Shown here one piece after another: positions 27,204 through 44,271 of a stretch of 64,000 nucleotides of DNA. Every line of letters starts with the position of its first letter. The stretch's first letter is position 1. The notes beneath the pieces are model-generated. The model did no database searches. It was given only the letters and a program-made list of their open reading frames with translations, and was not told the origin of the DNA. A program made the translations under genes and the position numbers. The DNA lies in NCBI GenBank assembly GCA_008501735.1, contig QQUF01000048.1:1-64000 (forward strand), given 5' to 3'. Source of the DNA: Calditrichota bacterium. GTDB lineage: Bacteria > CLD3.

Positions 27204-28607
27204 TTAAATTTTAGCGGTGAGTGAAAACCCGAAACTTATTCCCTTTGTGTCAAGAGCCAACCTTTCGTGAGTTGCATAGGCAAAATCAAAATCGAAGTAA
27301 CGAGTATTAATTCCTGTTCCCCAAGTTGTTGCAACTCCGTCAACTCCTCTTAAAATGATACCAAATCTTAAAGGAATTCGTTGCTTCCAAAGACGGTACT
27401 CAATTCCTGAGCTATATCGAACCGCACTGAAAAATGAAATATCATTTTTGGTAAGTCCTTTTTCCATCTCGAAAGTCCAAGTGACGTTATCCCAAGATTT
27501 CCCGATTCCAAATTTTACTAAAGAAGGGTATTCGCTTGTAAATCCACCTGTTGCAATAGTTGAATCAGCAACTTCAACATCAACTGAGTCAGAATCAATG
27601 TCAAAATAATTTGGCTCTGTGTAAAATTCTGTATATTTGAATTCAGCTTTTTTATTCCATTTTACATTTGAGCCCAATACATTGAGAACTGTCAGTCCGT
27701 AAGAAGTTCTTGGAGCACCTTTTATTTCTGTATATAACCCAATGTCAATAATTGGAACTAGAGTTCTGCCGCCTTCAGAAGTAAGGACAGAGATTCTAGA
27801 AACTTGATTTGGATTGTTAGGGTTTATTGAAGGTACACTTGCAAAAGTTTTGAAATTTCTTTGATGTTTATATTCAGCAAAAGGATAATCTGAGGTGTAG
27901 TAGTTAGTAGTATTATCAAAGACACTAACATCTTTTGCTGTAAAGATTCCTCCTGTTGCTTCTACAACTTTGAAATATCTTAGTCCTTCAAAATGTCTTA
28001 CTCCGATTCCAGCCGTAAAAATTTTCATTCGCTTAGTTTTAGGTAATTTAAAACCATAATTAAAGCCAATTTCAGCACCACCAAAACCTTCTGCTTGCGT
28101 TCCGTCAATTGAAAAATCATCTATATTGACATTACCTGAAAGTGCATATTCAAAAACACCTCTTGGAACTTTCCCTTCTCCGAAACCGACTCCTTGAATA
28201 TGAATTGAGAAATTGTTCTGTGCATAAGCGAGAATAGTAGCTTCTGTTGTGAAATTAAATTTCATACTTTCTGATTCAATACTAGAAAGTAAATCTTGCT
28301 TTTGTGTATCTGTTAAATAGTCACCTTTATCTCTAAAGAAGTATCTATTATAAGTACCAATATCCATAGAGTTGTTTCCAGCGACCATGCTTAGACTTGT
28401 AAATCTAACTTGAATAGGTAAATCAACCCAAGAAGCTGCAAGACGGGCAGGATTATTCTTATAAGAATCAATTCCGAGAGCATGAGTTACACCTGTTTTT
28501 CCCATTCCAAGTGAACGGACACTTCCGTTTCCTGCTGCAAAAGAATTTTCATTAAAAGCTAAAAATAAAACGATTAGTAGTAACCTTCTAAACATTATTC
28601 GTACCAT
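27204..28607 (-). CDS. Outer-membrane beta-barrel protein (PorV/FadL-like), last gene of envelope operon
   Basis: 467 residues (ATG 28607 directly abuts the preceding stop; ATG 28595 is an alternative). Signal peptide (LLLIVLFLAFNENSFAA) followed by VRSLGMGKTGVTHALGIDSYKNNPARLA, the N-terminal hallmark of PorV/FadL-like and DUF5723-like barrels. Alternating hydrophobic strands run to a C-terminal strand ending in a hydrophobic residue pattern (GISFGFSLTAKI). Such barrels transport hydrophobic ligands or act as T9SS attachment cofactors; which applies is not decidable here. Transcribed with two lipoprotein genes upstream. Confidence 0.75.
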   Translation of the reverse strand: MVRIMFRRLLLIVLFLAFNENSFAAGNGSVRSLGMGKTGVTHALGIDSYKNNPARLAASWVDLPIQVRFTSLSMVAGNNSMDIGTYNRYFFRDKGDYLTDTQKQDLLSSIESESMKFNFTTEATILAYAQNNFSIHIQGVGFGEGKVPRGVFEYALSGNVNIDDFSIDGTQAEGFGGAEIGFNYGFKLPKTKRMKIFTAGIGVRHFEGLRYFKVVEATGGIFTAKDVSVFDNTTNYYTSDYPFAEYKHQRNFKTFASVPSINPNNPNQVSRISVLTSEGGRTLVPIIDIGLYTEIKGAPRTSYGLTVLNVLGSNVKWNKKAEFKYTEFYTEPNYFDIDSDSVDVEVADSTIATGGFTSEYPSLVKFGIGKSWDNVTWTFEMEKGLTKNDISFFSAVRYSSGIEYRLWKQRIPLRFGIILRGVDGVATTWGTGINTRYFDFDFAYATHERLALDTKGISFGFSLTAKI

Positions 28608-29711
28608 TTAATTTAAAGGGTTGTATTGAGAGGCGAATCTTTCGAATTTATACATTACTAAGTTCCCATCTCTAATGAAAAACTTGTAGTCAAAATTTAT
28701 TAATCTACCTTTATGTTCAAAATTCAAATTGATTAAACTATCAGAGAGAATTTTATAACTTCCAGGAGAAGTAAATTCTTCAACTATTTCATTAGTAACT
28801 TCTGTCTTTGTGGTAGAGGTTGTATCACTTAGCGTTCTGAAAAACTGTGTGGTAATTACAGAATCTTTCTTATTGATTTTCTCGGAAAGTGAATAAAAAA
28901 GACTTGTTGCATCTCCAAATTGAGTTACTCTCTCTTTAGTTTCAAAATGATAACCTTCAACCAAAGTTAGAGTTTCAACTCCGTTTAAATAAAAAGAATC
29001 CTTAATTGCATAAGTTGAGTCTAAATTTAAAATTCTAGACTTCCAAGTGCTGTTTTCTAGTTCGGAGCTTTCACCATAATAGTTTTCAGTTCCATAGAGT
29101 ATCAAACTTTGAGACTGGATTTCTGCAAAAACAGCCCAAGGATCTAAACCAAATTTAGGAGAGTTTGTTGCTGTATCAATTGGAGTATTAAATATAAAAT
29201 TTCCATATTTTATTTCGAATGAGTTTATTCTTTTATAAACTGAATCCATATAAAATGGGTTTCCTAATATATCAATAAATAAAGTAGGTCCTTGATTAAA
29301 TACTGTTTGTAATGCGTAGTTAAAACCACTTTTGCTACCAAGATTGAATGTTTTTGTAGAATCAATATTACAAAAACCAGAAGTGTCATCAGGCAATCCA
29401 TTTAATCTAAACAAACGTCCTGAAAATGATTCAACCTCATTTGTATTTTGATTGTAGTTCGTTGAGGCAATATCAAAAAGGAAACTCAAAGAAACTGTTA
29501 AGTCGGTTTGTCCACAAGAAATAACCATTGACTCAGGAACATCTTCCTCATTTTTATTAGCAGATAAAAGCCATTTTCCACTCAAGTCAGAGGAAGATAT
29601 AGATTTTCTATCTAATGAGTTTAAGCCAAAATCATTAGGTGAATCTGTATCGTCTGCACTACAAGCAAACATAAAAATTGTTAAACTTAAAATTATAAAA
29701 ATTCTTATCAT
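28608..29711 (-). CDS. Lipoprotein, unknown, in envelope operon
   Basis: Start set at ATG 29711 (MIRIFIILSLTIFMFAC), with AGAGG upstream; a longer frame from 29750 would overlap the preceding gene and spoil the signal. About 367 residues. Lipobox ending at Cys17, then a Ser/Asp-rich linker and the segment DLSGKWLLSANKNEEDVPE, which resembles the strand pattern of lipocalin-like lipoproteins. I cannot name the family. It lies 13 bases after the large lipoprotein gene and directly before the barrel gene. Confidence 0.7.
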   Translation of the reverse strand: MIRIFIILSLTIFMFACSADDTDSPNDFGLNSLDRKSISSSDLSGKWLLSANKNEEDVPESMVISCGQTDLTVSLSFLFDIASTNYNQNTNEVESFSGRLFRLNGLPDDTSGFCNIDSTKTFNLGSKSGFNYALQTVFNQGPTLFIDILGNPFYMDSVYKRINSFEIKYGNFIFNTPIDTATNSPKFGLDPWAVFAEIQSQSLILYGTENYYGESSELENSTWKSRILNLDSTYAIKDSFYLNGVETLTLVEGYHFETKERVTQFGDATSLFYSLSEKINKKDSVITTQFFRTLSDTTSTTKTEVTNEIVEEFTSPGSYKILSDSLINLNFEHKGRLINFDYKFFIRDGNLVMYKFERFASQYNPLN

Positions 29712-29724
29712 TTTTAAAAAACCT

Positions 29725-32139
29725 CTAATGATTATCAATTCTTCGGTCAATCACCAAATCAAACAATAAATTTATATTTGCTCTAAGAACAGCATCTTTG
29801 GGGATAGAATTATATTTACCAGTAAATCTCACAAGTTCAGGCAAGGCTGCAACAAAAATTTTATTTGTTTCATTTGTTTGTGTTGTAAATGGTGGATAGT
29901 AAAAATCTTTGTAGTTTGATGAAGTTGGGATTTCAAAGCCATTTAGAGCAATAGTATCTTTGATGCTACTAGAAGGAAAAATACTTGTTATTGATTTAAC
30001 GGCATTTATTTTCTCTAAACTGTCAAGTAAAGTAATAAATTTTGTGCTATCTCCAAATGAGACTTCATTAGTTACTAAATTTTTAATACTGTTGAAATTT
30101 GAAACTAAGTTTTGCCTTGATGTGTCCATAAAAATATAAAAATTCATTTTTAATGGAAGATCATTTTTTAATTCTATTGCTAATTCAATATTTTGAAGTT
30201 GTCCGTTTATAAAGTCTACAGAACTTTCGCTAACGTCAAATTCTGAAAAAGAGTTTGGGTCATTTACATCAACTTCATTAAAGAATAAACTCTTAGTAAG
30301 AGAAATATTCATAGGTAGTTGTAAATCAATTTTTGCATTTGTTACTAATTTTTCACCATCTAAAATAAAATCGTCACCACTATTCTTATTTCCAATATGC
30401 AGGTCTACAATAAATTCAAGGTTTTCAGGATATTTGTTAATTACACTTGCTAAATCTCTCCAATTCTTGATAAAACTATCTGAAATAGATTTATTCTGGG
30501 AAGGATGAGGTGCAAAATAAATTCTTGATTTATCTGATAATTTTGTTGAGATTGTATCTTTTTCGCCACCAGGCAAGTCTTTAATGCCTCTTGCTATTAA
30601 GTCAGCATAACCACTTAATCTTGTATTAGGTATTTCGATATTTATACCGAGGTTCGATGTTTCAAATGCTATACCTTTATCTTTAATTTCGTCAGGGTAT
30701 GAAACTTGTTGTTTAACAATTGTTGAATCTGTATAGTCACTAATTTTTCCCTCCAAGAAAGATTCATTAGCATAAATTACCTTTACAGGACCATCAACTT
30801 TAACAGTAACTCCATCTGAAGATTTGATAGAAATATATTGGCTATCTTGGAGTGCCAAATTATAATCTATATTTAGACTTAAAGATTGGTCTTTTTGTTT
30901 GAATTCTGGAGGGTTATCAAATCGCATTATGACTTTTTCTAAGACTAGATTTAATCTTTGCCCTATTTCAGATTTTAACACTACTTTTCGAAAAGGGGTG
31001 CTTAAATCTATAGAGCAAATCTCTAGCTTACTAAATATATTTCCAGGTCTTTCATAAAGCTCTTCAAAACTTATCACAAAAGCGGTATCGGCTAATATAT
31101 CTACTAAATTTGAATCCATCTCAATCTTTAATGGAATTATTAAAGTATCAAAAAAAGCACATTCAATTATCATTGCATTTGCATTAGGGTTTATAGGGTC
31201 GAATGGAGCATTTGCCTCATAAATAGCAATACTATCTGATATTGGGTCTACTTTTAAATCTTCGCTATTTGTTATTAGAACACTATCAACTTCTGAAACT
31301 TTATATTCAGTTTCTTGTTGCACTTCAATTGAAACAAAATTATCTAACTCTTGTCCATAAGTTGAATCATTTTGGACAAGGTATGATCCAGTAAGTGCTA
31401 CGGAGTAAATTCTCCAAAGAGTTTGATTTTCAAATCTATGTGGCAAATCAAGAGTATTTCCTGGCTGAACAATCTCGTTTATATTTGATTTCTTAAATGC
31501 AACGAATTGTGTTCCTGAGAAATCAGTAGTCCAAAAGGTTAATTCCTTAATCTCAAGTGGGTTTGTAAAGTTATTTTTCAACTTAATTGTATCATCTTTA
31601 CTAGATTCTACAATTACAATTTTATTAAAATCTTGAAACTCATTTTCCACAGGGATTGATTCAAAATCATAAGTCTCACCAATAATTCCTAAAGTAGAAA
31701 AACGTAAAGTATCCTGTTGTTGTGAAGTAGGGAAGTTAGTATTGATATTGGTTTGAACTGAATCAGGTATAATATTAGATTCTAAAAAAGTGATAGTATC
31801 ATTTGAAGATGATGAGACTGTTACATCAAAGATTCCAACTTTTGACTCTGTTGGATTTGAGTCAGTTTCAATTTCACCAAAAATCTCCAAAGAAGAGCTT
31901 GATTCACGTTCAATAGACATCACTACATTATTTTTATCGGTTATGAAGTAAATTGAATCCGAAGGAGCGGTTTGGTCATTTAATTCGCTTAGCACAGAAA
32001 AAGCTTTAGAAAGAAGGTCAATTTTTATTTTCGTGAGAAATTCAGGAGCTTCGGGAGTTCCTAACTCTGGAACTGTACAAGCTTGAATTCCAAAGAGAAA
32101 TAGTGGAATTGAAAGCAAAAGCCATAATTTTTTAGTCAA
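29725..32139 (-). CDS. Large lipoprotein, unknown, in envelope operon
   Basis: 804 residues from TTG 32139, fixed by GGAGG seven bases upstream. Signal and lipobox LLLSIPLFLFGIQAC, acylated at Cys21. The body is rich in beta strands, Ser, Thr and Asp with no catalytic motif I recognise; repeated phrases such as L.LPHRF, IPNTRLSGYADL and KIDLQLPMNISL suggest several similar beta-sandwich domains. Codon choice looks more AT-ended than in dnaE or the surface proteins. It is encoded 16 bases after the sigma/methyltransferase fusion gene. Confidence 0.7.
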   Translation of the reverse strand: MTKKLWLLLSIPLFLFGIQACTVPELGTPEAPEFLTKIKIDLLSKAFSVLSELNDQTAPSDSIYFITDKNNVVMSIERESSSSLEIFGEIETDSNPTESKVGIFDVTVSSSSNDTITFLESNIIPDSVQTNINTNFPTSQQQDTLRFSTLGIIGETYDFESIPVENEFQDFNKIVIVESSKDDTIKLKNNFTNPLEIKELTFWTTDFSGTQFVAFKKSNINEIVQPGNTLDLPHRFENQTLWRIYSVALTGSYLVQNDSTYGQELDNFVSIEVQQETEYKVSEVDSVLITNSEDLKVDPISDSIAIYEANAPFDPINPNANAMIIECAFFDTLIIPLKIEMDSNLVDILADTAFVISFEELYERPGNIFSKLEICSIDLSTPFRKVVLKSEIGQRLNLVLEKVIMRFDNPPEFKQKDQSLSLNIDYNLALQDSQYISIKSSDGVTVKVDGPVKVIYANESFLEGKISDYTDSTIVKQQVSYPDEIKDKGIAFETSNLGINIEIPNTRLSGYADLIARGIKDLPGGEKDTISTKLSDKSRIYFAPHPSQNKSISDSFIKNWRDLASVINKYPENLEFIVDLHIGNKNSGDDFILDGEKLVTNAKIDLQLPMNISLTKSLFFNEVDVNDPNSFSEFDVSESSVDFINGQLQNIELAIELKNDLPLKMNFYIFMDTSRQNLVSNFNSIKNLVTNEVSFGDSTKFITLLDSLEKINAVKSITSIFPSSSIKDTIALNGFEIPTSSNYKDFYYPPFTTQTNETNKIFVAALPELVRFTGKYNSIPKDAVLRANINLLFDLVIDRRIDNH

Positions 32140-32155
32140 TATTATTTCCTCCGAA

Positions 32156-33331
32156 TTAGCTTTTTTTGCTACAAATTATCCAAAATATTTTCGGATAATT
32201 GTTTACTTCTTCGCTAATGAAAGTTTTAAAATTTGTCATCTTCATTTTTTTCAAATGTTTCACCAAATCGTCAGGTGCAAAACCTAACCAAATGTTACGC
32301 ATTTTATCCCATAAATCGGGTTTCTTATGTTTTACAAAATCTAAAATCACCAATCTACCATTAGGCTCCAAAACTCTTTGAAACTCGTTTAATGTTTCAA
32401 GAGGGTTTTTAGCGTGGTGCAATGCAAGGTTGCAAAAAAGTAGATTAAACTTTCCTGAATCAAAAGGAAGTCTCTCCATTTCACCACAAATGAAAAGCGA
32501 TTTCTGATTACTTCTCTTCTTTGCTTCAAAAAGAAGGTCATTGTTTAAATCAATGCCGAAAGAGATTTCCTGCTTTGTGATTTCGGTCAAGAATTTACCA
32601 ACTCCACATCCAACATCCAACACTTTTTCTTGCCCATTTAAATTTAATTGACCGAGAAGCCCTGAGATTACTTCTTTTTTCAAAAATTCATCTTTAATGT
32701 CATCCCATTTCTCGTAAACGGATGAAAAATATTCTATTATTTTTTTATTTAAGTAATTCCAAAAATCTTCTTGCGGTGCAAACGGGTGTAGCTTTTCAAG
32801 TAAATCTTGGTTTTTACTTTCTTCTGAAACAGTTACCGCCCATCTTGGTGCAATTGAAAATAAAAATTGCTTTTTGAATTCTCTTCTCGCACGGTTCAAA
32901 AGCGATGTTAAAGCAGATTCTGAGATTCCAAAAATTTCAGCAATTTTTTTATAACTGTAATTTTCAAAATCTTTCAATTCCAAGACTTTTCGATAATTTG
33001 GAGGCAAACTTTCAAGAACTTTCTGAATTTGGCTTTTTAGGTCGTCGGCTTCTTCTGTTGACTCAAGAACTAAGTTCTCATTTTCAATGTCAGAGGTTCG
33101 TTTGGTTTTATTCAGATAATTAATTGCGTGATTTCGAGCAATCGTGTAGAGGAAACTCTTAATCTCTGGCTTAGAAGCCTCAGGCTTGACTTTTGCAAGA
33201 GCTTTTAAAAAAACATCTTGGGCTAAGTCTTTAGCAGTTTCTTCATCTTTGACAAATCCAAAAAGGTAGTGTTTGATTTGGTCAAAGTGAGAAAAAAGAA
33301 TTTCTTCAACATTTTTATTCGGTTGATTCAT
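32156..33331 (-). CDS. ECF sigma factor fused to a SAM-dependent methyltransferase
   Basis: 391 residues in one uninterrupted frame. Residues 12-78 are ECF sigma region 2 (DLAQDVFLKALAKV, FLYTIARNHAINYL). Residues about 102-156 are region 4 (LESLPPNYRKVLELKDFENY, YKKIAEIFGISESALTSLLN). After a linker, residues about 195-391 form a class I methyltransferase: motif I VLDVGCGVGKFL at 237-248, acidic SFGIDLN, then GEMERLPFDSGKFNLLFCN, NEFQRVLEPNGRLVILDF and a tail with IWLGFAP. That methyltransferase type is known fused to ArsR regulators; here a sigma factor takes the DNA-binding role. Likely a self-contained signal-responsive regulator, the ligand or methyl acceptor unknown. The start overlaps the TonB-like gene by 17 bases. 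Confidence 0.88.
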   Translation of the reverse strand: MNQPNKNVEEILFSHFDQIKHYLFGFVKDEETAKDLAQDVFLKALAKVKPEASKPEIKSFLYTIARNHAINYLNKTKRTSDIENENLVLESTEEADDLKSQIQKVLESLPPNYRKVLELKDFENYSYKKIAEIFGISESALTSLLNRARREFKKQFLFSIAPRWAVTVSEESKNQDLLEKLHPFAPQEDFWNYLNKKIIEYFSSVYEKWDDIKDEFLKKEVISGLLGQLNLNGQEKVLDVGCGVGKFLTEITKQEISFGIDLNNDLLFEAKKRSNQKSLFICGEMERLPFDSGKFNLLFCNLALHHAKNPLETLNEFQRVLEPNGRLVILDFVKHKKPDLWDKMRNIWLGFAPDDLVKHLKKMKMTNFKTFISEEVNNYPKIFWIICSKKS

Positions 33332-34376
33332 TCGATTGTTTTATCACAGGGTTATTTGATTTAATTCCTGGTCCAAATTTAGTTTCCCATTCTTTTCTTC
33401 TTGCTCTGTGGTAGCTTGTTTCTGGGTAAAACATTTGAATTGTTACCACCAAAGAATCTTCCGGGAAGCCCGAAGGTAACGGAATTTTTACATTTTTCAA
33501 CGCTTGTTCACTTGAGAATTGAAATGATTCGTGTCCAATGACTTCGATTGTTTCAAGAATTTTAACTTTACCGTCTCTTTGAATCGAAAATTTTTCTACA
33601 GTGTGTCCAAAAAAGAAAAAAGGCGAACCATAACCACTCGGCGGTTGCCAACCTTCTTGCACTTTTGCCAAATACTTTTCAAAGTACTCAGCCCATTTCC
33701 ATTCTCTTGTGCTTAGACTAAGAATACCACTTTCGCCAGAAAAACTTTCTTGATTATCGAATCTTTTTTGTTTATAAAGTCCACTTCCGTCCGAAGAATT
33801 AGTTTTGCCTTGCTCATTTCCCTTTGATTCCGTCAAGAAAATCGGGTTAAATTTTGACTCTTTACGTGGATTATAAAAATCATTTTCTTGTCTTTCCTTT
33901 TGTAGTATTCTTCCTTTTTCAAGTAATCGTTTTTCGGCTTCTGACTTTTTACTTTCTTTGGTTTCTTGAGAAGGAGCAACTTGAGGATTTTGCGAACCGT
34001 CAGGTTTACCTTTCCCAGCAAGTTCTGAAATATCAAACGAGTTTTTTTGCTCACCTTTGACAAATGGCAAATCACTTTTTTTCAAGTTCTCTTTTGGTTC
34101 TTGGTCTTTAGCCTTTGAGATTTTCTGAGAAAGTAGGTTGGTCTGTTCGGGAACTTCAGAGTTGAAGTTTTCATTTCGAACAATCTTTTCCCTAGATTCA
34201 TCTTTTTTAGGAGGAGGTTTTAAAACGAAGTCTAATTTTTTAGGTTCACTTTTGATTCTGTCAAGTTCTGAAGAGTTAAAAGCAAATATTTCATTGAATG
34301 GCAAGTAGAAAAAAACAACGTGAAAAAACAACGAAAGTAGAAAAGCGAAGAGAAAGATTTTATCTCTTTTTTTCAA
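33315..34376 (-). CDS. TonB-like energy transducer
   Basis: 353 residues. One N-terminal transmembrane segment (IFLFAFLLSLFFHVVFFYLP), a long Lys/Pro/Glu-rich periplasmic spacer (DFVLKPPPKKDES onward), and a C-terminal domain with the TonB-like pattern FSIQRDGKVKILETIEVIGH, SFQFSSEQALKNVKIPLPSGFP. TonB proteins couple the proton gradient to outer-membrane receptors; ExbB/ExbD are not in the window. Divergence from canonical TonB leaves open a related TolA-like role. Second gene of the six-gene run and overlapping the sigma fusion. Confidence 0.75.
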   Translation of the reverse strand: MKKRDKIFLFAFLLSLFFHVVFFYLPFNEIFAFNSSELDRIKSEPKKLDFVLKPPPKKDESREKIVRNENFNSEVPEQTNLLSQKISKAKDQEPKENLKKSDLPFVKGEQKNSFDISELAGKGKPDGSQNPQVAPSQETKESKKSEAEKRLLEKGRILQKERQENDFYNPRKESKFNPIFLTESKGNEQGKTNSSDGSGLYKQKRFDNQESFSGESGILSLSTREWKWAEYFEKYLAKVQEGWQPPSGYGSPFFFFGHTVEKFSIQRDGKVKILETIEVIGHESFQFSSEQALKNVKIPLPSGFPEDSLVVTIQMFYPETSYHRARRKEWETKFGPGIKSNNPVIKQSNESTE

Positions 34377-34406: not shown

Positions 34407-34997
34407 TTAATGTAAAGCGTATTTTACAACAAAAAATCCACCAATCAACAAGACAGTAAAAACAATTGCTAAAAGGTTAAAGTATTTGTCAATGAATTCC
34501 TGAATCTCTTCTCCGAATTTCCAGATTAAACCGCCAACAAGGAAAAATCTTGCACTTCGACCAACAAGTGAGGCTAAGACAAATCCGAAAAAGTTAATTT
34601 CAAAAACACCTGCAGTAATCGTAAAAAGTTTGTAAGGGATTGGTGTAAAACCAGCTGTAAAAACTACCCAAAACCCATTTTCTTCGTAAAGAGTCCTTAC
34701 CATTTCAAATTTGTCAGGAGTAAAGCCTGGGATATATGAGAAAAATAAATCACTAACAACACTCCACAAACCTAATCCGATGTAGTAACCGAACATTCCA
34801 CCGAGAACAGAAGCAACCGAGCAGTAAAGTGCAAAGTGAAGAGACTTTTTTGGTTTTCCGACTGCAAGTGCAACAAGCAAAACATCTGGTGGAATTATAA
34901 AAAAAGCAGATTCAGTAAAAGCTAAAATTGCAAGTGCTAATGGACCGTAAGGAGTTTCAGCCCATTTCAAAACCCAATCGTAAATTTTTCTAACCAT
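34407..34997 (-). CDS. YqaA/DedA-family (VTT domain) membrane protein
   Basis: 196 residues with about five membrane segments. The VTT/SNARE-associated family signature is visible: ESAFFIIPPDVLL, GGMFGYYIGLG, and FTPIPYKLFTITAGV followed by GRSARFFLVGG. Family members are lipid scramblases or transporters such as undecaprenyl-phosphate flippases and membrane-homeostasis factors. First gene of the co-directional run toward 27204, 30 bases before the TonB-like gene. Confidence 0.85.
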   Translation of the reverse strand: MVRKIYDWVLKWAETPYGPLALAILAFTESAFFIIPPDVLLVALAVGKPKKSLHFALYCSVASVLGGMFGYYIGLGLWSVVSDLFFSYIPGFTPDKFEMVRTLYEENGFWVVFTAGFTPIPYKLFTITAGVFEINFFGFVLASLVGRSARFFLVGGLIWKFGEEIQEFIDKYFNLLAIVFTVLLIGGFFVVKYALH

Positions 34998-35091: not shown

Positions 35092-38000
35092 TTAAAATTG
35101 CTCTTTTGAAATTCCGTATCGTTGTAAAATTCTTCTGACTCTTTTAGTGTCAATTCCTAATTCTTCAGCAGAATGTGTGATGTTTCCATTGTGTTTTTTT
35201 AAAGCTTCCTCTGTAACAAACTTTTCTAAAAGTGCAATTTTTTCATTTAGGCTTTTTCCTTCGGTAATTTTGTTAAAAATCTCTAAGTAAGTTTCTTCAA
35301 AATCGTCACTAAGTTTTTCAACGGTAATTTTCTGAGATGTGAAATTTTTCTCACCAAAAAGTTCTTTTGAACTTACCTGAGAGTTTTCATTTGTTTTAAC
35401 AATTGCTTTTGCAATCGTGTTTTCTAACTCTTTGACATTTCCTAACCAATCCGAGTTTTGCATTCGTTCAATCGCCTCATTGGTAAATCCTAGAGTATTT
35501 TTGCCAAGTTCTTGGGAATACCTCTCCAGAAGATGATAAGCTAAAAGTGGAATGTCTTGTCTTCTTTCACGAAGTGGAGGAACAGTGATTTTTAAAACAT
35601 CAAGCTTGTGAAATAAATCTTCTCGAAAATTACCGTCTTTCACTTCCTCTTCAAGATTTTTGTGGGTTGCAACAATGATTCGGCAATTAAGTGAAATTGG
35701 TCTTTCAGCTCCAATTCTCCAAACTTCCTTTTTTTGTAAAACTCTAATAAACTTAGCCTGTAATTCCAAATTAAGTTCTGCAATTCCGTCTAAAAAAAGT
35801 GTGCTGTCGTTTGCAAGTTCAAACTTTCCTTTCTTATCAGAAGTTGCTCCCGTAAAAGCACCTTTCTCGTACCCGAAAAGTTCACTTTCCGCTAAGTCTT
35901 TTGGAATTGTCGCACAATTTACTTCAACAAAGAAATTACATTTTCTTGAACTTAAGTTGTGCAAGGCTTCTGCAACAAGTTCTTTTCCTGTTCCTATTTC
36001 GCCTTGAATACAAACCGTAAAATTAACTTTTGATGCTTCTTCGATTGATTTGTAAACTTCTTGCATACGAGGACTATTGCCAATGAAAATTCCTAAATTA
36101 CGAATCTCAAAGTCAAGTTTTGCTTTCACAGATTCTTCCTGACGAATGAGCAAGGGTGTTAGCAAATCTGCAATTTTTTGGACTTTCTCTAAATCCTCCG
36201 AAACAAAACTTCCACTTGAAAAATCTTGTCTGTCTAAATACAAAGCACCAATTACTTTTTCGCTAACTCGTAGCGGAACAGCGATTACAGAGAGAAAAAT
36301 TTTCCCAACAACGCTTTCGTCTGCACCAAATTCTTCTGACTCAACCGCATTTTCTATTAATAAGAATTGGTTGTTTTTTACACATTTCTCCAAAATGCTT
36401 TTACTAAAAAATGATTCTTCAGGTTTAAGGTTCTTGGACTCTGCTTTCACTAAAATTTCATTGTGGAAGCTATCGTAAGTGATAATTTGGCTTTTTGTTG
36501 CTTTGCACTCGTCGAGCAAAAAGTCTAAAAATTGTTGGTATGCTGTTGAAGGGGTTAGAAAATTAGTTACCAAATTTAAAAGGTTGTCTAATTTCATTTT
36601 TGAATTTTTTGTAAGTAATTTTTTCGGCTTTTCGCCACCTAATAATTTGAGTTCTTCAATTCGAACTTTGTCAAAATTTCGCTTCTTTTCAAAATAAATT
36701 TTTTCATAAAAGCTGAGGGCTTCTTTGCGGTAATAATCAACTTCTGAGTAAGATTTTTCCATTTTTAAGGCAAAATCGAAAAGTGTGTAATTCTTAAAGG
36801 CTAAAATTTCATTTTGCTTTTTCAGATTTTTCAAATTTTTGACTTGCTCAAAAGCCAATTTTTTCTTTCCAAGTTCAAAAGCAATTTTTGATTTGTAAAT
36901 TTCTACTATTAATTTTTTGGATTTTAATTTGAGAAAAGAGTCCTGAAAAAACTTGTTGAAGATTTTTTGTGCCTCTAAAGGATTTTTCAAAACCAAAAGA
37001 GTCTTGATTTTTGCTAAAGCACAATTTATAACCTCGTTTTTATTTTTGAATTTCTGAGTAAGTTTTAATGAAGTGGAAAAATATTTTAAGGCTACGTCAA
37101 AATCTCCCTTTTCCCAAAAGCATTCACCGAGAAATCTGTTTATGATAATAACCATTCTTTCCAAATTATTCTCTTTGGCAAATTTCAGAGCAGTCTTTTG
37201 TAGTTCAATAGATTTTGTGTAGTTCCCTTGGTATTTTTCAATCAAGCCAATGTCAGAAAGCGTCATTGCAATTTCTTTTGTACTTCTTATTTTCCTATAA
37301 ATTCTTTGGGCTTTTTCAAAATTATCAATTGCCTTTCCAAAATTTCCAAGAGAACCTCTTAACTTTCCAAGGCTCGTAAAAATTATTGCTTGAGTTTGAA
37401 CCTCTCCAAGCTTCTCGTGGAGTTTTGCACTTTCCTTGTAAAATTCAATTGCCTTTTTTTTGTTTCCAATTTCAAAGTAAACGTGTCCCAGATTTAAGTA
37501 AGTTTTTGCCTTGATAAGTAAGTCATCAGTTTTTAAAGTTTCTTTCAAGTAGTGAATTGATTTTTTCGATTTCCCAAATTTTCTACAAGTGGTTCCCAAG
37601 TTCACCAAAGAAGAAATTCGACCTTGCTCATATTTAACTTTTTCTGAGAGTTTTAGTTGTTTGTTAAAAACACTTGTGGCTTTTTTGAAGTTCATTTTTA
37701 CCAGCTCTGTTTGTCCAGAGATTTTCAGAATTTCAATTTCCAAATAAATATCATCAAGCCTTTGAGCAATCATAAGTGCTTCTTCAAGCAAAAGGTCAAC
37801 TTGAGAAAAATATCTTAAGCCTTTGAATAAAGTTGCTAAAGCAATATTAGCTTCTGCAATCCACTTATCAAAATGACCTTCCAAAGCTAATTCTCTAGCT
37901 TTTTCTAAGGTCTTTTGTTCTTCTGCCTTTTTGCTAAGGAACTTTAAAGCCCAAGCAATTTTTAGTAAAAGTTTTATTTTTTGAAGTTCCGATTTTTGTG

Positions 38001-40122
38001 TTTCGGCAAGTTCAAAAGCAGCTTGAAAGTAATTTAGTGCCTCTTTAACTGCGAATTTTTCTTTTGAAATTTCACCTGCCAAATCATTGTAGAAAATCGC
38101 TTTCTTGGTGTTTCTCGCCTCTGTGAAATGCTTGGCTAATTTTTCAGCAACTTGTTTTTCTTTGCCCGAAAAAGTGCTTTCTAAAAAAAATCCAATTTTT
38201 GAGTGAAGATTTTTCTCTCTTTTTCCTGAAAGACCGCTCAGCAAAATTTCTTTAATTTTATCGTTCTTGAACTCATAATTTTCAGTAACCAAATTGATTT
38301 CTTTAACTTCGTCCAAAATTGCAAAAAGCTTAGCTTCTTCAAACTCATTGAGTTTGAGCAAAGTCTGAAAATCAAAATCGCTGTTCAGAACGGCTTCTAC
38401 CTCAAGTAAATTTTTTGCGTCGTCAGAAATATTTGAGAGTTTCTCCAAAAGTATTTGTTCAAGGTTTTCTGACTGGAAAATATTGCCGTCAAGGTCAAAA
38501 ATTAATTCCCAAGAGTTTCCATTGAACCTAAAATTTCCTTGTCTAAAACTTTCCTGCACTAAAGTTTCAGTAAGCAAAGGAATTCCTTTTGACCGATTAA
38601 AAAATTCATTAGCAATTTCGGTTGCTACAAATTCACTTTGCCCTAAAATAGAAGCAAGCATCTTTTGCAAAGGTTCAATTTCTAAAGGCTCAAGTTGGAT
38701 TTTTTGAAAGTCTTTTTCAAAACGATTTTGTATTTCACTACAAGTTCCAACAATTAGAATCTGGCTTTCCTTAAAGATTTCAATAAAATTTTCAAACCAC
38801 TCAAAAGTTTTTTCATCAAGATTTTGAATATCGTCAAAGAGAAAAACAAAAGATTTTTTCTCTTTACTAAACTTCATAAGGTTTTGAATGAAGTCGAAAG
38901 TTGCTTGGTGCAGCCTTAACTCTTGAGCTTTTCCAGAAAGTTCAGGCAGTTTTTCGATTAAGTTCATAAATGGCATTGCAGAGAGTTGTGGTAGGATTTT
39001 GGTCAAGTCCCAAGCAAAATGACCTAAAATTTGAGCTTTTTCAGTATCTGAAACTTTGTAGAGTGAATCAATAGTTTGAAACAAGAGTATTTGTAAAACA
39101 CTGTAAGGATTGTCCTTCTCGTTACACTTAATTTTGAAAAATGCTGCATTCTTATTGGAAACATTTTTTTGGAATTCTTCAAAGAGCTTAGTTTTCCCAA
39201 TTCCATTTTCACCACAAATTAGGATTTTTTGGAGAAAGTTTTTTTGAGTTTGGGTAAAAATTTTTTCTAAAGATTTAAGCTCATTCTCTCTGCCTACAAA
39301 AGAAGGTGGAAGAAGGTAATTCCCCGAAATTTCAACTTGTTCTTTTGGATTTAAGAATTTGTATAATTTGGAGGCAAGTTCTCTTGCGGATTGAAATCTA
39401 TTTTTGGGATTCTTTTCCAAAAGTTTTCGGACAACGAGTTCAATTTCTTTGGGAATTTGGGTAGATAAATTTTCGGGAAAAACAATCGGAGACTCCAAAT
39501 GTCCAAAAGCAATTTGAGAAATATTCATTCCTTGAAAGGGAGTTGTTCCCGTCAATAATTCATAAAAAATTATTCCAAGTGAATAAAGGTCGCTTCGGTT
39601 GTCAATGCTCGAAAATTTTTTAAACTGTTCTGGTGAAGCGTAAACAACTGTGTCTAAAAAAGAATTTTCGTTTAAAAGTGTGAAAAACATTTCTGTTTTA
39701 ATCAAACCAAAGTCTTTAAGTTTTACAATTCCGTCAGCAGTGCAAAGAATGTTTTCGGGTTTCAAGTTTCCGTGAATGATTCCTTTGGAATGCAAAATCT
39801 CAAGCCCATTACAAATTTGAATAATTTTTGAGATTTTCTCTTGTAGAGATGCAATTCCTTGAGCCTTTACAGATTCCACAAATTCCATTATGAAACCGAA
39901 GTCATTTTCTTTTTCGTACCACTCCAACATTTCTACACAATTCTTGTGTTTGATTTTTGAAGCAGAAAAGAATTTCTTTTTAATTCTTAGCTTGTTTCTA
40001 TCAGATGAGAATTTTGAATGCAAAACTTTTAGTGCAGCAATTTCATCGGTAACTTTATTTTGAATTTTATAATTTTTCCCCAAATTATCGGAATTGATTT
40101 CTTCAAGAACTTGCCAATTCAT
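35092..40122 (-). CDS. Giant signalling protein: kinase-like, AAA/TPR, GAF, sigma-54 activator, Fis HTH
   Basis: ATG 40122 (MNWQVLEE) chosen because GGAG lies seven bases before it; 1676 residues. Order: Ser/Thr kinase-like domain (about 5-265; Lys32 in AALKVL, DFG at 137-139, YASPEQ), a STAND/AAA ATPase (Walker A GENGIGKT near 300, Walker B FVFLFDDIQ), many TPR repeats (about 650-1130), GAF domain (about 1150-1330), sigma-54 activator AAA (about 1360-1590; GEIGTGKE, GAFTGA loop, SDWLGNVKELEN) and a Fis-type HTH (NITHSAEELGIDTKRVRRIL). Two catalytic residues differ from consensus: the kinase HRD is HGN (Asn119), and the sigma-54 Walker B DE is DG (Gly1446). Kinase-TPR-sigma54 proteins are known in deltaproteobacteria and planctomycetes. 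It probably integrates a signal into sigma-54 transcription, but may be catalytically degenerate. Confidence 0.9.
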   Translation of the reverse strand: MNWQVLEEINSDNLGKNYKIQNKVTDEIAALKVLHSKFSSDRNKLRIKKKFFSASKIKHKNCVEMLEWYEKENDFGFIMEFVESVKAQGIASLQEKISKIIQICNGLEILHSKGIIHGNLKPENILCTADGIVKLKDFGLIKTEMFFTLLNENSFLDTVVYASPEQFKKFSSIDNRSDLYSLGIIFYELLTGTTPFQGMNISQIAFGHLESPIVFPENLSTQIPKEIELVVRKLLEKNPKNRFQSARELASKLYKFLNPKEQVEISGNYLLPPSFVGRENELKSLEKIFTQTQKNFLQKILICGENGIGKTKLFEEFQKNVSNKNAAFFKIKCNEKDNPYSVLQILLFQTIDSLYKVSDTEKAQILGHFAWDLTKILPQLSAMPFMNLIEKLPELSGKAQELRLHQATFDFIQNLMKFSKEKKSFVFLFDDIQNLDEKTFEWFENFIEIFKESQILIVGTCSEIQNRFEKDFQKIQLEPLEIEPLQKMLASILGQSEFVATEIANEFFNRSKGIPLLTETLVQESFRQGNFRFNGNSWELIFDLDGNIFQSENLEQILLEKLSNISDDAKNLLEVEAVLNSDFDFQTLLKLNEFEEAKLFAILDEVKEINLVTENYEFKNDKIKEILLSGLSGKREKNLHSKIGFFLESTFSGKEKQVAEKLAKHFTEARNTKKAIFYNDLAGEISKEKFAVKEALNYFQAAFELAETQKSELQKIKLLLKIAWALKFLSKKAEEQKTLEKARELALEGHFDKWIAEANIALATLFKGLRYFSQVDLLLEEALMIAQRLDDIYLEIEILKISGQTELVKMNFKKATSVFNKQLKLSEKVKYEQGRISSLVNLGTTCRKFGKSKKSIHYLKETLKTDDLLIKAKTYLNLGHVYFEIGNKKKAIEFYKESAKLHEKLGEVQTQAIIFTSLGKLRGSLGNFGKAIDNFEKAQRIYRKIRSTKEIAMTLSDIGLIEKYQGNYTKSIELQKTALKFAKENNLERMVIIINRFLGECFWEKGDFDVALKYFSTSLKLTQKFKNKNEVINCALAKIKTLLVLKNPLEAQKIFNKFFQDSFLKLKSKKLIVEIYKSKIAFELGKKKLAFEQVKNLKNLKKQNEILAFKNYTLFDFALKMEKSYSEVDYYRKEALSFYEKIYFEKKRNFDKVRIEELKLLGGEKPKKLLTKNSKMKLDNLLNLVTNFLTPSTAYQQFLDFLLDECKATKSQIITYDSFHNEILVKAESKNLKPEESFFSKSILEKCVKNNQFLLIENAVESEEFGADESVVGKIFLSVIAVPLRVSEKVIGALYLDRQDFSSGSFVSEDLEKVQKIADLLTPLLIRQEESVKAKLDFEIRNLGIFIGNSPRMQEVYKSIEEASKVNFTVCIQGEIGTGKELVAEALHNLSSRKCNFFVEVNCATIPKDLAESELFGYEKGAFTGATSDKKGKFELANDSTLFLDGIAELNLELQAKFIRVLQKKEVWRIGAERPISLNCRIIVATHKNLEEEVKDGNFREDLFHKLDVLKITVPPLRERRQDIPLLAYHLLERYSQELGKNTLGFTNEAIERMQNSDWLGNVKELENTIAKAIVKTNENSQVSSKELFGEKNFTSQKITVEKLSDDFEETYLEIFNKITEGKSLNEKIALLEKFVTEEALKKHNGNITHSAEELGIDTKRVRRILQRYGISKEQF

Positions 40123-40240
40123 TTTTATCTCCAATTTTGGTTTGGTAGTGCAAAATGCCTTACTTTGAATTTAAGCAAAAATGCTTCTAAAACCGAAGAA
40201 AAAGGGAATGATTCTAACGAATTTGTTAGGTTAAATCGTT

Positions 40241-41005: not shown

Positions 41006-44000
41006 TTAGGAAATTTTATCTCGAAATTTCTGCAAAATTTCAGAGTTTGGTTTTTTAGAAATGAAGAGGTTCTGATTTTCCTGAGAAGCCATTCTGCGTT
41101 TACACACAGAGACAATTCTATGTGCGTTGCGTAAATACTCTTCTGCTAAATCAGAGTTTATTCTACCGCTTAATTTGTCATAAACTTTAAACGATAGAAA
41201 CCAGTTTTCTTGAGAAGTAAAGTCAGAGTAAAATTCTAATTGCTCTACCATTTTATTCACTAATTCTTTCGCTCTTTGCAAGTTACCTAAGTTTAAATAG
41301 CAGTAACTTTGATAAAGGTAAAGATGAATTAATGTGTAATTTTCTAAATTAGAGTCGAATTTCTCAAGCTCTTTTAAGCATTCCGAATATTCTTTCTTTA
41401 CAAAGAGAAATTTAATTTTTGTGGCAGACAGTTTTTCTAAAATTTCAGGTACATTGATTTCTTTAGACATTACTTCCCCTTCTTTGAGAAAGATTTCCGC
41501 ATTTTCCAAATCTTCAATTTCTGCGTAAAGCTCACTTAGATTTAGAGTCAGTGAGAATTTTTGAACTTTGTTACCAATCTCTGTGGCAATTGCAATTGCA
41601 CTTTCTAATCTTTTTCTTGACGCTGAGAAATTGCCGATATTTTTGTAAGTTTCAGCTAACATATCCAAAGCGTTAACTTCTTCCTGTTTGCTGTCGATTT
41701 GTTTGGCAATTTTTAATCCTTCTTCCAAAATCAAAATTGATTTTTCAAAGTAACCTAACCTTGCTTCCAAGTTCCCTAAATTAAAAGCAGTTGTAATCAA
41801 AGTTTCTTTGTTGTCAATTTGGTAAGCAATTTTATACGATTGGTTTAAGTACTCTTTTGCTTTTTCAAAATTTCCTAAAGCATCGTACATAATTCCAACG
41901 CTTCCAATTGAAGTGCAAATTAGATTTTTGTCGTCAATAGTTTGAGCTAACTCCAAAGATTTTTTGTAATGCTTAAGGGCTTCAAGGTAAAACTTGTTGT
42001 CCAAATTGAAATTTCCCAAAATCCTGTAAGCAAGAGCCATTCCTTCAAGGTCATTTAACTCTCCTTTGAGAATTAAACTATTTTCAAGAAGCAATTTGCT
42101 ATTTTCAAAATTTCCGACTTGGTGTTCAAATTTTGCGAGTCTCAAATAAATGTCGGAGGTTTTCAAGGCATCTTTTAATTTCTGTGAAACAGATAACAAA
42201 TTGTCTAAAAGCTTTTTAATTTTTTTGGTTTCATAAAGTTTTTCTAAAATTTCTAAGAAGTTGAAGTTTGCCTCATAATACTTTTCTAACAAATCTCGGT
42301 CATTCGGATTGGCTTCCAATTTATTTGCCAAAATTTCATTTGCAAGTTTATAGTAGTTTGAAGCGATTTCATTTGAGTAAACTGACTTTGATTTTGCAGC
42401 TGAAAGCAATGCATAGCTCAATGTCTTTTGCGAATCTCCAACGACTTTATAATGTCTTGTTAGTTGCTCAAAAAACTTGTCAATTCTTTGGATATAAATT
42501 TTTTCGATTGTTCGAGCAGCTTTGAGATGAAGTTCCTTTTTTCTTTCTTCAGAAATTTGGTTGTAGATAAAATCCGCTTCAATTTGCAAACTAAAATTAA
42601 AAATTTCTGCTGTACCTCTTTCATCTTCTTGAATGATGTTAAACTCAAGAAGTTTATCTAAAATCTCGTACAAACGCCCTTCTGGAATCCCTGAAACTTC
42701 CTCCAAAATCCTTAAGGGACATTCATCACCAACTACAGAAATTACTTCCAAAATCTCACTTAACTCAGAATCAAATTTATTAAAACGTCTTTGGATTATT
42801 TCTTTGAGAGTTTGTGGTAACTCTTCAATTAATTTTCCTTTATCGATTTTCATCTCTTTTGTATTTTTAAAAAACTTTACAAGTTCTTTGAGAAAAATCG
42901 GAATTCCAGCAGAAAGCTCTTGGATTTCGTCTGTCATAGTTAGTGGGATGTTGTGGTAAGCAAGTAGTTTTTCAGTTTCAGATTTTGTAAAATTCTTCAA
43001 TTCAATCAGCGAAGCATTTTCATTTTTGAGTAGAAAATTACTGACGAATTCCAAAACATTTTCGTCGGGCTGAACTGTGAAAATGAAAAAAACTTTTTTG
43101 TCTTTTAAATTCCTAACCAAGTACTGAATTAGCAAAAGACTTTCTTTGTCTAAAACCTGAATTTCTTCAAAAGAAAGAATTAAAGGCTCAACTTCTGCAA
43201 CTCCTTGCAAGAATTTGTAAATTGCAAAGTAGAGACTGTGTTCATCAGCTTTTCTTGCTCGTCTGTTTTCTATTTTTTGTTCAAATTCAGGAAGTAGCGA
43301 CTTAATTTCTTCTTTTTGTTCACTTACCAAGTTGTTGAAAGAAGAATAAAAGATTAGTTCCTTTTTTGAATAAATTCGGCTAAGAATTTCCCGAATTGGT
43401 TGGTAAGAAACATCATTTGTTTGTTTACACTTTCCTCTAAAAAATGAGTGTCTGCGTCCTTTGCCAATCTTTTCTACAAATTGGTAAATCATTGCAGTTT
43501 TTCCCATTCCGATTTGACCACTAACGATTACTGCTTGACCTTTTCCTTTCTCAATCAAATCAAACTTTTTTTCAAGAGTTTGAAATTCTTGACCACGACC
43601 AATGAAGACGTATTCTTTTTTCTCTTTTTCTTCAATTGTGTCAGTTACAGTCGAAACTCTTCCACGACCTGCTTGTTTGGAATTGTAAAGAGCTTTGTCT
43701 GCGAGTGAAAGTAAGTTTTCTGTTTGCTCTGTATCGGATGGAAAGTTGGCAATTCCAATAGAAATGCTAATAGGAACTCTTTTATTCTTGACGAGGTATT
43801 GAGTTTCTTGAACCATTTGCAACATTCTTTCAGCAACAATCAAACTTCCTTCTTTTGTCGATTCAGGAAGCAGAACAACGAATTCATCTCCTGCATAACG
43901 AAAAACTTTGTCAGTGTCCCGAACAGCTTTTTGCAAGATTTCGGAGACAATTTTTATAACCTCATCACCAACTAAATGCCCAAAAGTATCGTTCACCCCT

Positions 44001-44170
44001 TTGAAGTGGTCAATGTCAAGCATCAGCAAAGTTAGTTCTCTATTGTAACGAGTCGTTCTTTGAGCTTCGACTTGAAATTGTTCTTTGAAGTAACGTCTAT
44101 TGTAAACTTTCGTTAATTCGTCGTGAAAAGCTAATTTTTTAAGTTGTTCTAAAGAATAGTCTTTTTCCAT
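41006..44170 (-). CDS. GGDEF-AAA-TPR signalling protein (probable diguanylate cyclase)
   Basis: ATG 44170 chosen because AAAGGTGA lies five bases upstream and overlaps the GTG alternative; 1054 residues. The N-terminal GGDEF domain (about 10-170) has the metal aspartate D52 (LDIDHFKGVND), an active-site variant A93-G-D-E-F97 (AGDEF enzymes are known to be active) and the inhibitory I-site R84-D-T-D87. It makes c-di-GMP by family knowledge. A STAND/AAA ATPase follows (GQIGMGKTAMIYQF), then a long TPR array to the C-terminus. Having the cyclase first, with no membrane segment, suggests a cytoplasmic sensor with ligand or partner binding by the TPRs. The AAA/TPR middle resembles that of the kinase/sigma-54 protein nearby. 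Confidence 0.9.
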   Translation of the reverse strand: MEKDYSLEQLKKLAFHDELTKVYNRRYFKEQFQVEAQRTTRYNRELTLLMLDIDHFKGVNDTFGHLVGDEVIKIVSEILQKAVRDTDKVFRYAGDEFVVLLPESTKEGSLIVAERMLQMVQETQYLVKNKRVPISISIGIANFPSDTEQTENLLSLADKALYNSKQAGRGRVSTVTDTIEEKEKKEYVFIGRGQEFQTLEKKFDLIEKGKGQAVIVSGQIGMGKTAMIYQFVEKIGKGRRHSFFRGKCKQTNDVSYQPIREILSRIYSKKELIFYSSFNNLVSEQKEEIKSLLPEFEQKIENRRARKADEHSLYFAIYKFLQGVAEVEPLILSFEEIQVLDKESLLLIQYLVRNLKDKKVFFIFTVQPDENVLEFVSNFLLKNENASLIELKNFTKSETEKLLAYHNIPLTMTDEIQELSAGIPIFLKELVKFFKNTKEMKIDKGKLIEELPQTLKEIIQRRFNKFDSELSEILEVISVVGDECPLRILEEVSGIPEGRLYEILDKLLEFNIIQEDERGTAEIFNFSLQIEADFIYNQISEERKKELHLKAARTIEKIYIQRIDKFFEQLTRHYKVVGDSQKTLSYALLSAAKSKSVYSNEIASNYYKLANEILANKLEANPNDRDLLEKYYEANFNFLEILEKLYETKKIKKLLDNLLSVSQKLKDALKTSDIYLRLAKFEHQVGNFENSKLLLENSLILKGELNDLEGMALAYRILGNFNLDNKFYLEALKHYKKSLELAQTIDDKNLICTSIGSVGIMYDALGNFEKAKEYLNQSYKIAYQIDNKETLITTAFNLGNLEARLGYFEKSILILEEGLKIAKQIDSKQEEVNALDMLAETYKNIGNFSASRKRLESAIAIATEIGNKVQKFSLTLNLSELYAEIEDLENAEIFLKEGEVMSKEINVPEILEKLSATKIKFLFVKKEYSECLKELEKFDSNLENYTLIHLYLYQSYCYLNLGNLQRAKELVNKMVEQLEFYSDFTSQENWFLSFKVYDKLSGRINSDLAEEYLRNAHRIVSVCKRRMASQENQNLFISKKPNSEILQKFRDKIS

Positions 44171-44271
44171 TTCAATCACCTTTGCTTTTGGAGGAAGTAA
44201 AATTTCACCTAAAAATAATTACAAAATTTCAAAAGATTGGAATTGTTTTTAATTTCTTAGAAAGTTTTAGG

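Follow-up and report, generated by a model that had tools for sequence, protein, structure and literature searches.

A gene on the minus strand of the 64,000-nucleotide window, the whole stretch of DNA analysed here, encodes an ECF sigma factor fused to a methyltransferase domain, and the protein is predicted to be a self-contained sigma factor that drives ahcY in response to SAH, or to the SAM/SAH ratio, as sensed by its methyltransferase pocket, a reading to which we give a probability of roughly 0.7. ECF sigma factors usually take orders from a separate anti-sigma protein. SAH is the waste product of all methylation reactions and inhibits methyltransferases generally; its known control is exerted by riboswitches or by the repressor SahR. 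If the reading is true, the fusion would be a one-protein metabolite-to-promoter switch acting through an enzyme-like domain, and sigma-based SAH control would form a third type beside riboswitches and SahR. The fusion gene and its parts are as follows.

32156..33331, minus strand: ECF sigma factor-methyltransferase fusion gene, 391 amino acids
33095..33289, minus strand: sigma region 2, residues 15-79 (Pfam PF04542, E 7.2e-12)
32882..33031, minus strand: sigma region 4, residues 101-150 (Pfam PF08281, E 7.9e-16)
32747..32881, minus strand: linker joining the sigma half to the methyltransferase domain, residues 151-195, with P162 invariant in 12/12 relatives (helices predicted, low confidence at about 185-188)
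32159..32746, minus strand: class I SAM-binding methyltransferase domain, residues 196-391 (PF08241, E 8.9e-20; predicted fold)
32594..32623, minus strand: SAM motif I VLDVGCGVGK, residues 237-246, with D239, G241 and G245 invariant among relatives
32279..32341, minus strand: subfamily signature DFVKH...WLGF, residues 331-351, common to ArsR-methyltransferases

The fusion is a genuine single protein. The preliminary description had placed sigma regions 2 and 4 and a methyltransferase in one chain, with the motifs VLDVGCGVGK and WLGF, and both points are borne out: the motifs are present, WLGF at residues 348-351, and the Pfam search assigns Sigma70_r2 (residues 15-79, E 7e-12), Sigma70_r4_2 (101-150, 8e-16) and Methyltransf_11 (238-329, 9e-20), all above their curated cut-offs. 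The sigma part has the ECF-type layout, with regions 2 and 4 only, and scores 87.6 bits with the ECF superfamily model TIGR02937 (cut-off 42.9), the sole NCBIfam sigma model to reach its cut-off among the matches listed; the SigZ equivalog TIGR02959 is not reached (88.2 bits versus 168.65). The C-terminal half is a class I SAM methyltransferase by profile (PF08241), by the motif VLDVGCGVGK, by GIDLN, which supplies the acidic residue after beta 2, and by Foldseek. The full-chain structure prediction (mean pLDDT 81) gives a sigma half made of helices only and a C-terminal half with a Rossmann-type fold, the mutual placement of which is unreliable at a pTM of 0.60. Foldseek matches of the predicted fold are SAM methyltransferases, several of them SAH-bound, and the longer protein Rv2258c. 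Among the Pfam matches listed there is neither a SnoaL domain, the criterion for ECF41, the C-terminal half being a methyltransferase, nor an HTH_5 or ArsR domain, in place of which the sigma domains stand.

The same architecture was sought elsewhere and was found in a second genus and in two other phyla. In the second genus, which belongs to the same family, the chain recurs at 66% identity over residues 5-390, linker included and with no internal stop (matching public contig JADZEA010000077.1), so the concern that the fusion might occur only here and be frameshifted in relatives falls away. Ten genomes of the two other phyla carry the fusion at 26-33% identity, and the full-length fusion is present in 12 genomes of three phyla in total. 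Since the architecture, including the linker, is intact in another genus and two other phyla, an assembly error is ruled out as its source. The genome set holds nine genomes of the window's phylum, and a full-length match is absent from the seven sister-family genomes at the threshold used. A profile search of 386 genomes (about 327 genera) added two full-length members from other phyla, one in G112 and one in G351, the latter genome being a single contig of 4,978,541 bases; carriers amount to 9/40 genomes in the G351 phylum, with one copy cut by a contig end, and 1/2 in the G112 phylum. No additional member was seen in a second wide genome sample, which largely overlaps the first, and no relative in a scan of viral contigs. 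Across the relatives LHH is invariant and the DFxxH and WLGF positions are conserved; some, such as G351 with DAGSATG, have a weaker form of motif I.

The candidate target of the sigma factor emerges from gene order. In all nine carriers of the G351 phylum the next co-directional gene after the fusion is ahcY (adenosylhomocysteinase, 418 amino acids), identified by TIGR00936 at 642-645 bits versus a cut-off of 498 (642 for the G351 copy). Nearly all fusion-free genomes of this phylum still have ahcY, with other neighbours in those read. The ahcY of G389 adjoins the same hydrogenase-maturation genes as that of G399 with the sigma gene missing, which looks like a loss in G389. Three fusion genomes, the window's among them, have ahcY unlinked to the fusion. 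Two further observations concern the surroundings of ahcY. In G351 a gene at L020:11600-12145, three genes upstream of sigma-ahcY, encodes a protein resembling, by eye, the adenosine-specific kinase family, adenosine being a product of AhcY. In three sister-family loci (L101, L102 and L103) ahcY is directly followed by a gene that by eye encodes a MetH N-terminal-like methionine synthase.

A shared upstream element ties the unlinked cases to the linked ones. In 8/8 readable upstream regions of the G351 phylum GCGAAAGA-N15-TGTATA stands at the start of the sigma gene with constant spacing, with the variants GCAAAAGA in G408 and CCGAAAGA in G387 and G388. Relative to the element the reading frame shifts, by inspection, from genome to genome, and the conservation is therefore not that of coding sequence. 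The -10-like hexamer of six relatives reaches up to or into the predicted start codon, so that either the true start lies further in or the transcript is leaderless. When whole genomes were searched with one mismatch allowed, a match directly before ahcY first came to light in G001; direct reading of the ahcY upstream regions gave GCGAAAGGTTTTAAAACAAGACTTGTATT in G000 and CCGAAAGAAACCGGTATTTAAGTTGTTTT in G112. A two-box matrix trained on the eight sigma-gene sites only was then run on the 300 nt upstream of 29 ahcY genes. The three ahcY elements had been noticed by eye before this run and none was used in training. The top three scores (15.3, 15.2 and 13.9, at -83, -88 and -94) belong to the fusion genomes with unlinked ahcY, the next best is 6.9 and the 17 fusion-free ahcY genomes reach at most 5.0. 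The chance of picking exactly these three among 20 unlinked ahcY genes is 1 in 1140, and at most two of 753,853 background positions score as high.

The pattern CGAAAGRTTTT-N10-TTGTAT, which was drawn from the G000 and G001 sites themselves, has one exact genome-wide match in each of these two genomes, the ahcY promoter. The other matches, considered as candidate sites of additional methionine-cycle genes, carry two mismatches and are no more frequent than in the control, and with the spacer made one base longer there are no exact matches; because what remains is at control level, the predicted regulon is very small. Extra exact motif matches in G399 and G407 lie within coding regions and were taken as chance. 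A riboswitch was considered as the control of ahcY and set aside, with no Rfam match in a scan that covered the fusion loci and the window and left the ahcY loci of G000, G001 and G112 outside. As a candidate target of the fusion sigma factor, ahcY has strong support from these genomic comparisons, which place it in the predicted regulon by linkage in nine genomes and by the promoter element in three more.

The methyltransferase domain links the fusion to a known family of regulators. The 21-residue signature [DE][FLA]xxH-x13-[WR]xGF is common to the ArsR-fused, sigma-fused and stand-alone WLGF-type domains tested (in the G386 copy E replaces the first D) and is missing from five generic methyltransferases. 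When plasmid records were searched with the domain by tblastn, the annotated regulators among the high-coverage matches were ArsR/SmtB proteins of 320-341 amino acids, whose genes directly precede metF in Sinorhizobium, Rhizobium, Sphingomonas and Novosphingobium; the S. meliloti protein consists of HTH_5 and Methyltransf_11. The kinship with ArsR-type methyltransferases that had been proposed is thus upheld by the signature and by the context beside metF. SahR is an SAH-responsive member of the ArsR family with a core regulon of ahcY, metH, metF and metK (PMC4239095), and the sahR gene of Ensifer aridi, at 1023 bp (PMC8877191), is about as long as the ArsR-methyltransferase genes found here. 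From size, domains and context we infer that the ArsR-methyltransferases beside metF are SahR.

In a tree of the methyltransferase domain the sigma, ArsR and stand-alone types separate, and the deep branching order is not resolved by the tree. A single origin of the fusion is favoured by the shared linker, though the tree itself does not tell a single from a repeated origin. The suggestion that a sigma factor had replaced the repressor does not follow from such a tree; a fusion of neighbouring genes looks equally possible, given the unfused pairs of SigZ and methyltransferase genes. Stand-alone genes for WLGF-type methyltransferases of 206-207 amino acids adjoin SigZ-type ECF sigma genes in two genomes of the G351 phylum (L051:1160-2648 and L053:2918-4324); such pairs may be the unfused counterpart to the single chain. 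In the sister family, WLGF-type methyltransferases (L022:4655-5458 and L023:5025-5672) by eye adjoin a PEP mutase/isocitrate lyase-like gene, with a LysR gene nearby.

We infer from these comparisons that the sigma factor reads the element and that its ligand is SAH or SAM, with SAH as the activating signal. The fusion would then be an ECF sigma factor for the methylation cycle that works without a separate anti-sigma factor, its C-terminal methyltransferase domain serving as the ligand pocket. When SAH rises, or the SAM/SAH ratio falls, binding would alter the contact of the domain with sigma regions 2 and 4, and the sigma factor, once free, would associate with RNA polymerase and recognise CGAAAGR-N15-TGTATN promoters. 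The window's genome has a single exact match to the clade's site pattern, which stands before ahcY, so that adenosylhomocysteinase would be made and SAH removed; in the G351 phylum the element stands at the start of the sigma-ahcY operon, which would add autoregulation. Against this reading count the weaker motif I of some relatives, the contact of the -10-like hexamer with the start codon in six of them, and the place of the fusion gene in the window's genome, in an envelope operon with no copy of the element ahead of it. The preliminary description had offered SAM-type chemistry and a metal or metalloid among the signals that might set sigma activity. The ahcY linkage and the promoter element support the former and narrow it to SAH/SAM, with ahcY as the target; the latter is without support, no metal gene having been seen beside the fusion in the genomes examined.

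It is less probable, and on balance unlikely, that the fusion controls ahcY with a pocket that reads SAM or its lack, or as a default-active sigma factor that the ligand shuts off. The same genomic evidence fits such a circuit, and both signs have a precedent in PMC8999054, where the extensions of ECF41 are inhibitory and those of the CorE type are needed for activity. Against it, inducing ahcY is what homeostasis would call for when SAH builds up, and SAH is the signal of the closest regulators, those of the SahR kind (PMC4239095).

The locus in the window bears on a further alternative. There the fusion gene stands in an unrelated envelope operon, with these neighbours.

34407..34997, minus strand: VTT/DedA-domain membrane protein, first gene of the putative operon (Pfam PF09335; synteny with the second-genus locus L014)
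33315..34376, minus strand: TonB-like single-pass protein, upstream, overlapping the fusion start by 17 bp (TonB-like by eye, no Pfam match; synteny kept in L014)
29725..32139, minus strand: predicted lipoprotein of 804 amino acids, downstream, 16 bp past the fusion (no Pfam or NCBIfam family; kept in L014)

The gene order (VTT protein, TonB-like protein, fusion, two predicted lipoproteins, outer-membrane-like protein) is the same in L014. The two lipoproteins and the outer-membrane-like protein occupy positions 27204-32139 of the window and have no Pfam or NCBIfam match. The promoter element is absent from the 300 nt upstream of the window's fusion gene and of its near neighbours. Two long chains are encoded further along: one of 1680 amino acids (35092-40134), by eye a Ser/Thr kinase with AAA-type ATPase/TPR and sigma-54 activator parts and a Fis-like end, and one of 1057 amino acids (41006-44179), by eye a GGDEF domain with an ATPase and TPR repeats.

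These envelope genes would suit a C-terminal part that is an active methyltransferase on a small molecule, lipid or protein, coupling its activity or the level of its substrate to transcription, with ahcY clearing its SAH. The SAM motif and fold are intact in the window's protein, and an active site could be built from the invariant LHH together with the conserved positions of DFxxH and WLGF. Yet one regulatory enzyme is hardly likely to require a dedicated switch at the ahcY promoter, and the neighbourhoods of the fusion in the three phyla showed no common gene of a substrate pathway; we regard an active enzyme as improbable. That the element belongs to another, co-occurring regulator and the fusion-ahcY linkage is historical is scarcely credible: what revealed the element was its position and not binding, but it tracks the fusion in three phyla, is missing from the 17 fusion-free ahcY upstream regions and has a two-box, promoter-like layout with a constant 15-nt gap.

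With SAH as the preferred signal, the fusion probably represents an undescribed ECF group, spread over three phyla or more, whose built-in sensor is a methyltransferase fold and in which SAH licenses RNA polymerase at ahcY, the SahR circuit re-invented by activation and not repression. No published description of ECF sigma factors with a methyltransferase domain, ahcY or SAH was found in the open-licence literature without the 2021 ECF re-classification, so an earlier listing among ECF groups is possible. The predicted CGAAAGR-N15-TGTATN promoter before ahcY opens the reading to a direct test with a single protein, promoter and metabolite, and the fusion could serve as an SAH biosensor.

Among known systems, the ECF41- and CorE-type sigma factors are steered by an attached domain and share with the fusion the order of regions 2 and 4 and then a domain believed to stand in for the anti-sigma factor, according to the available portion of PMC8999054; the extension here is instead a SAM-binding methyltransferase, and no such group is named in that portion. 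OrbS, a sigma factor for iron starvation that carries its own iron sensor, is alike in that the sigma factor itself senses a small effector, but its effector is iron and no methyltransferase domain is mentioned in the available portion of PMC9023288. The SigZ-WLGF pairs likewise combine an ECF sigma gene with a neighbouring methyltransferase that carries the 21-residue signature; there, however, the two are separate genes, and the fusion sigma part scores 88 bits against the SigZ cut-off of 169. Closest are the SahR/SamR-type regulators, in which a methyltransferase domain that also carries this signature is attached to a DNA-reading domain. SahR has ahcY as a core target and SAH as effector (PMC4239095, PMC8877191), both of which are predicted for the fusion; the difference is that SahR is an ArsR winged-helix repressor, whereas the ECF sigma factor described here would activate.
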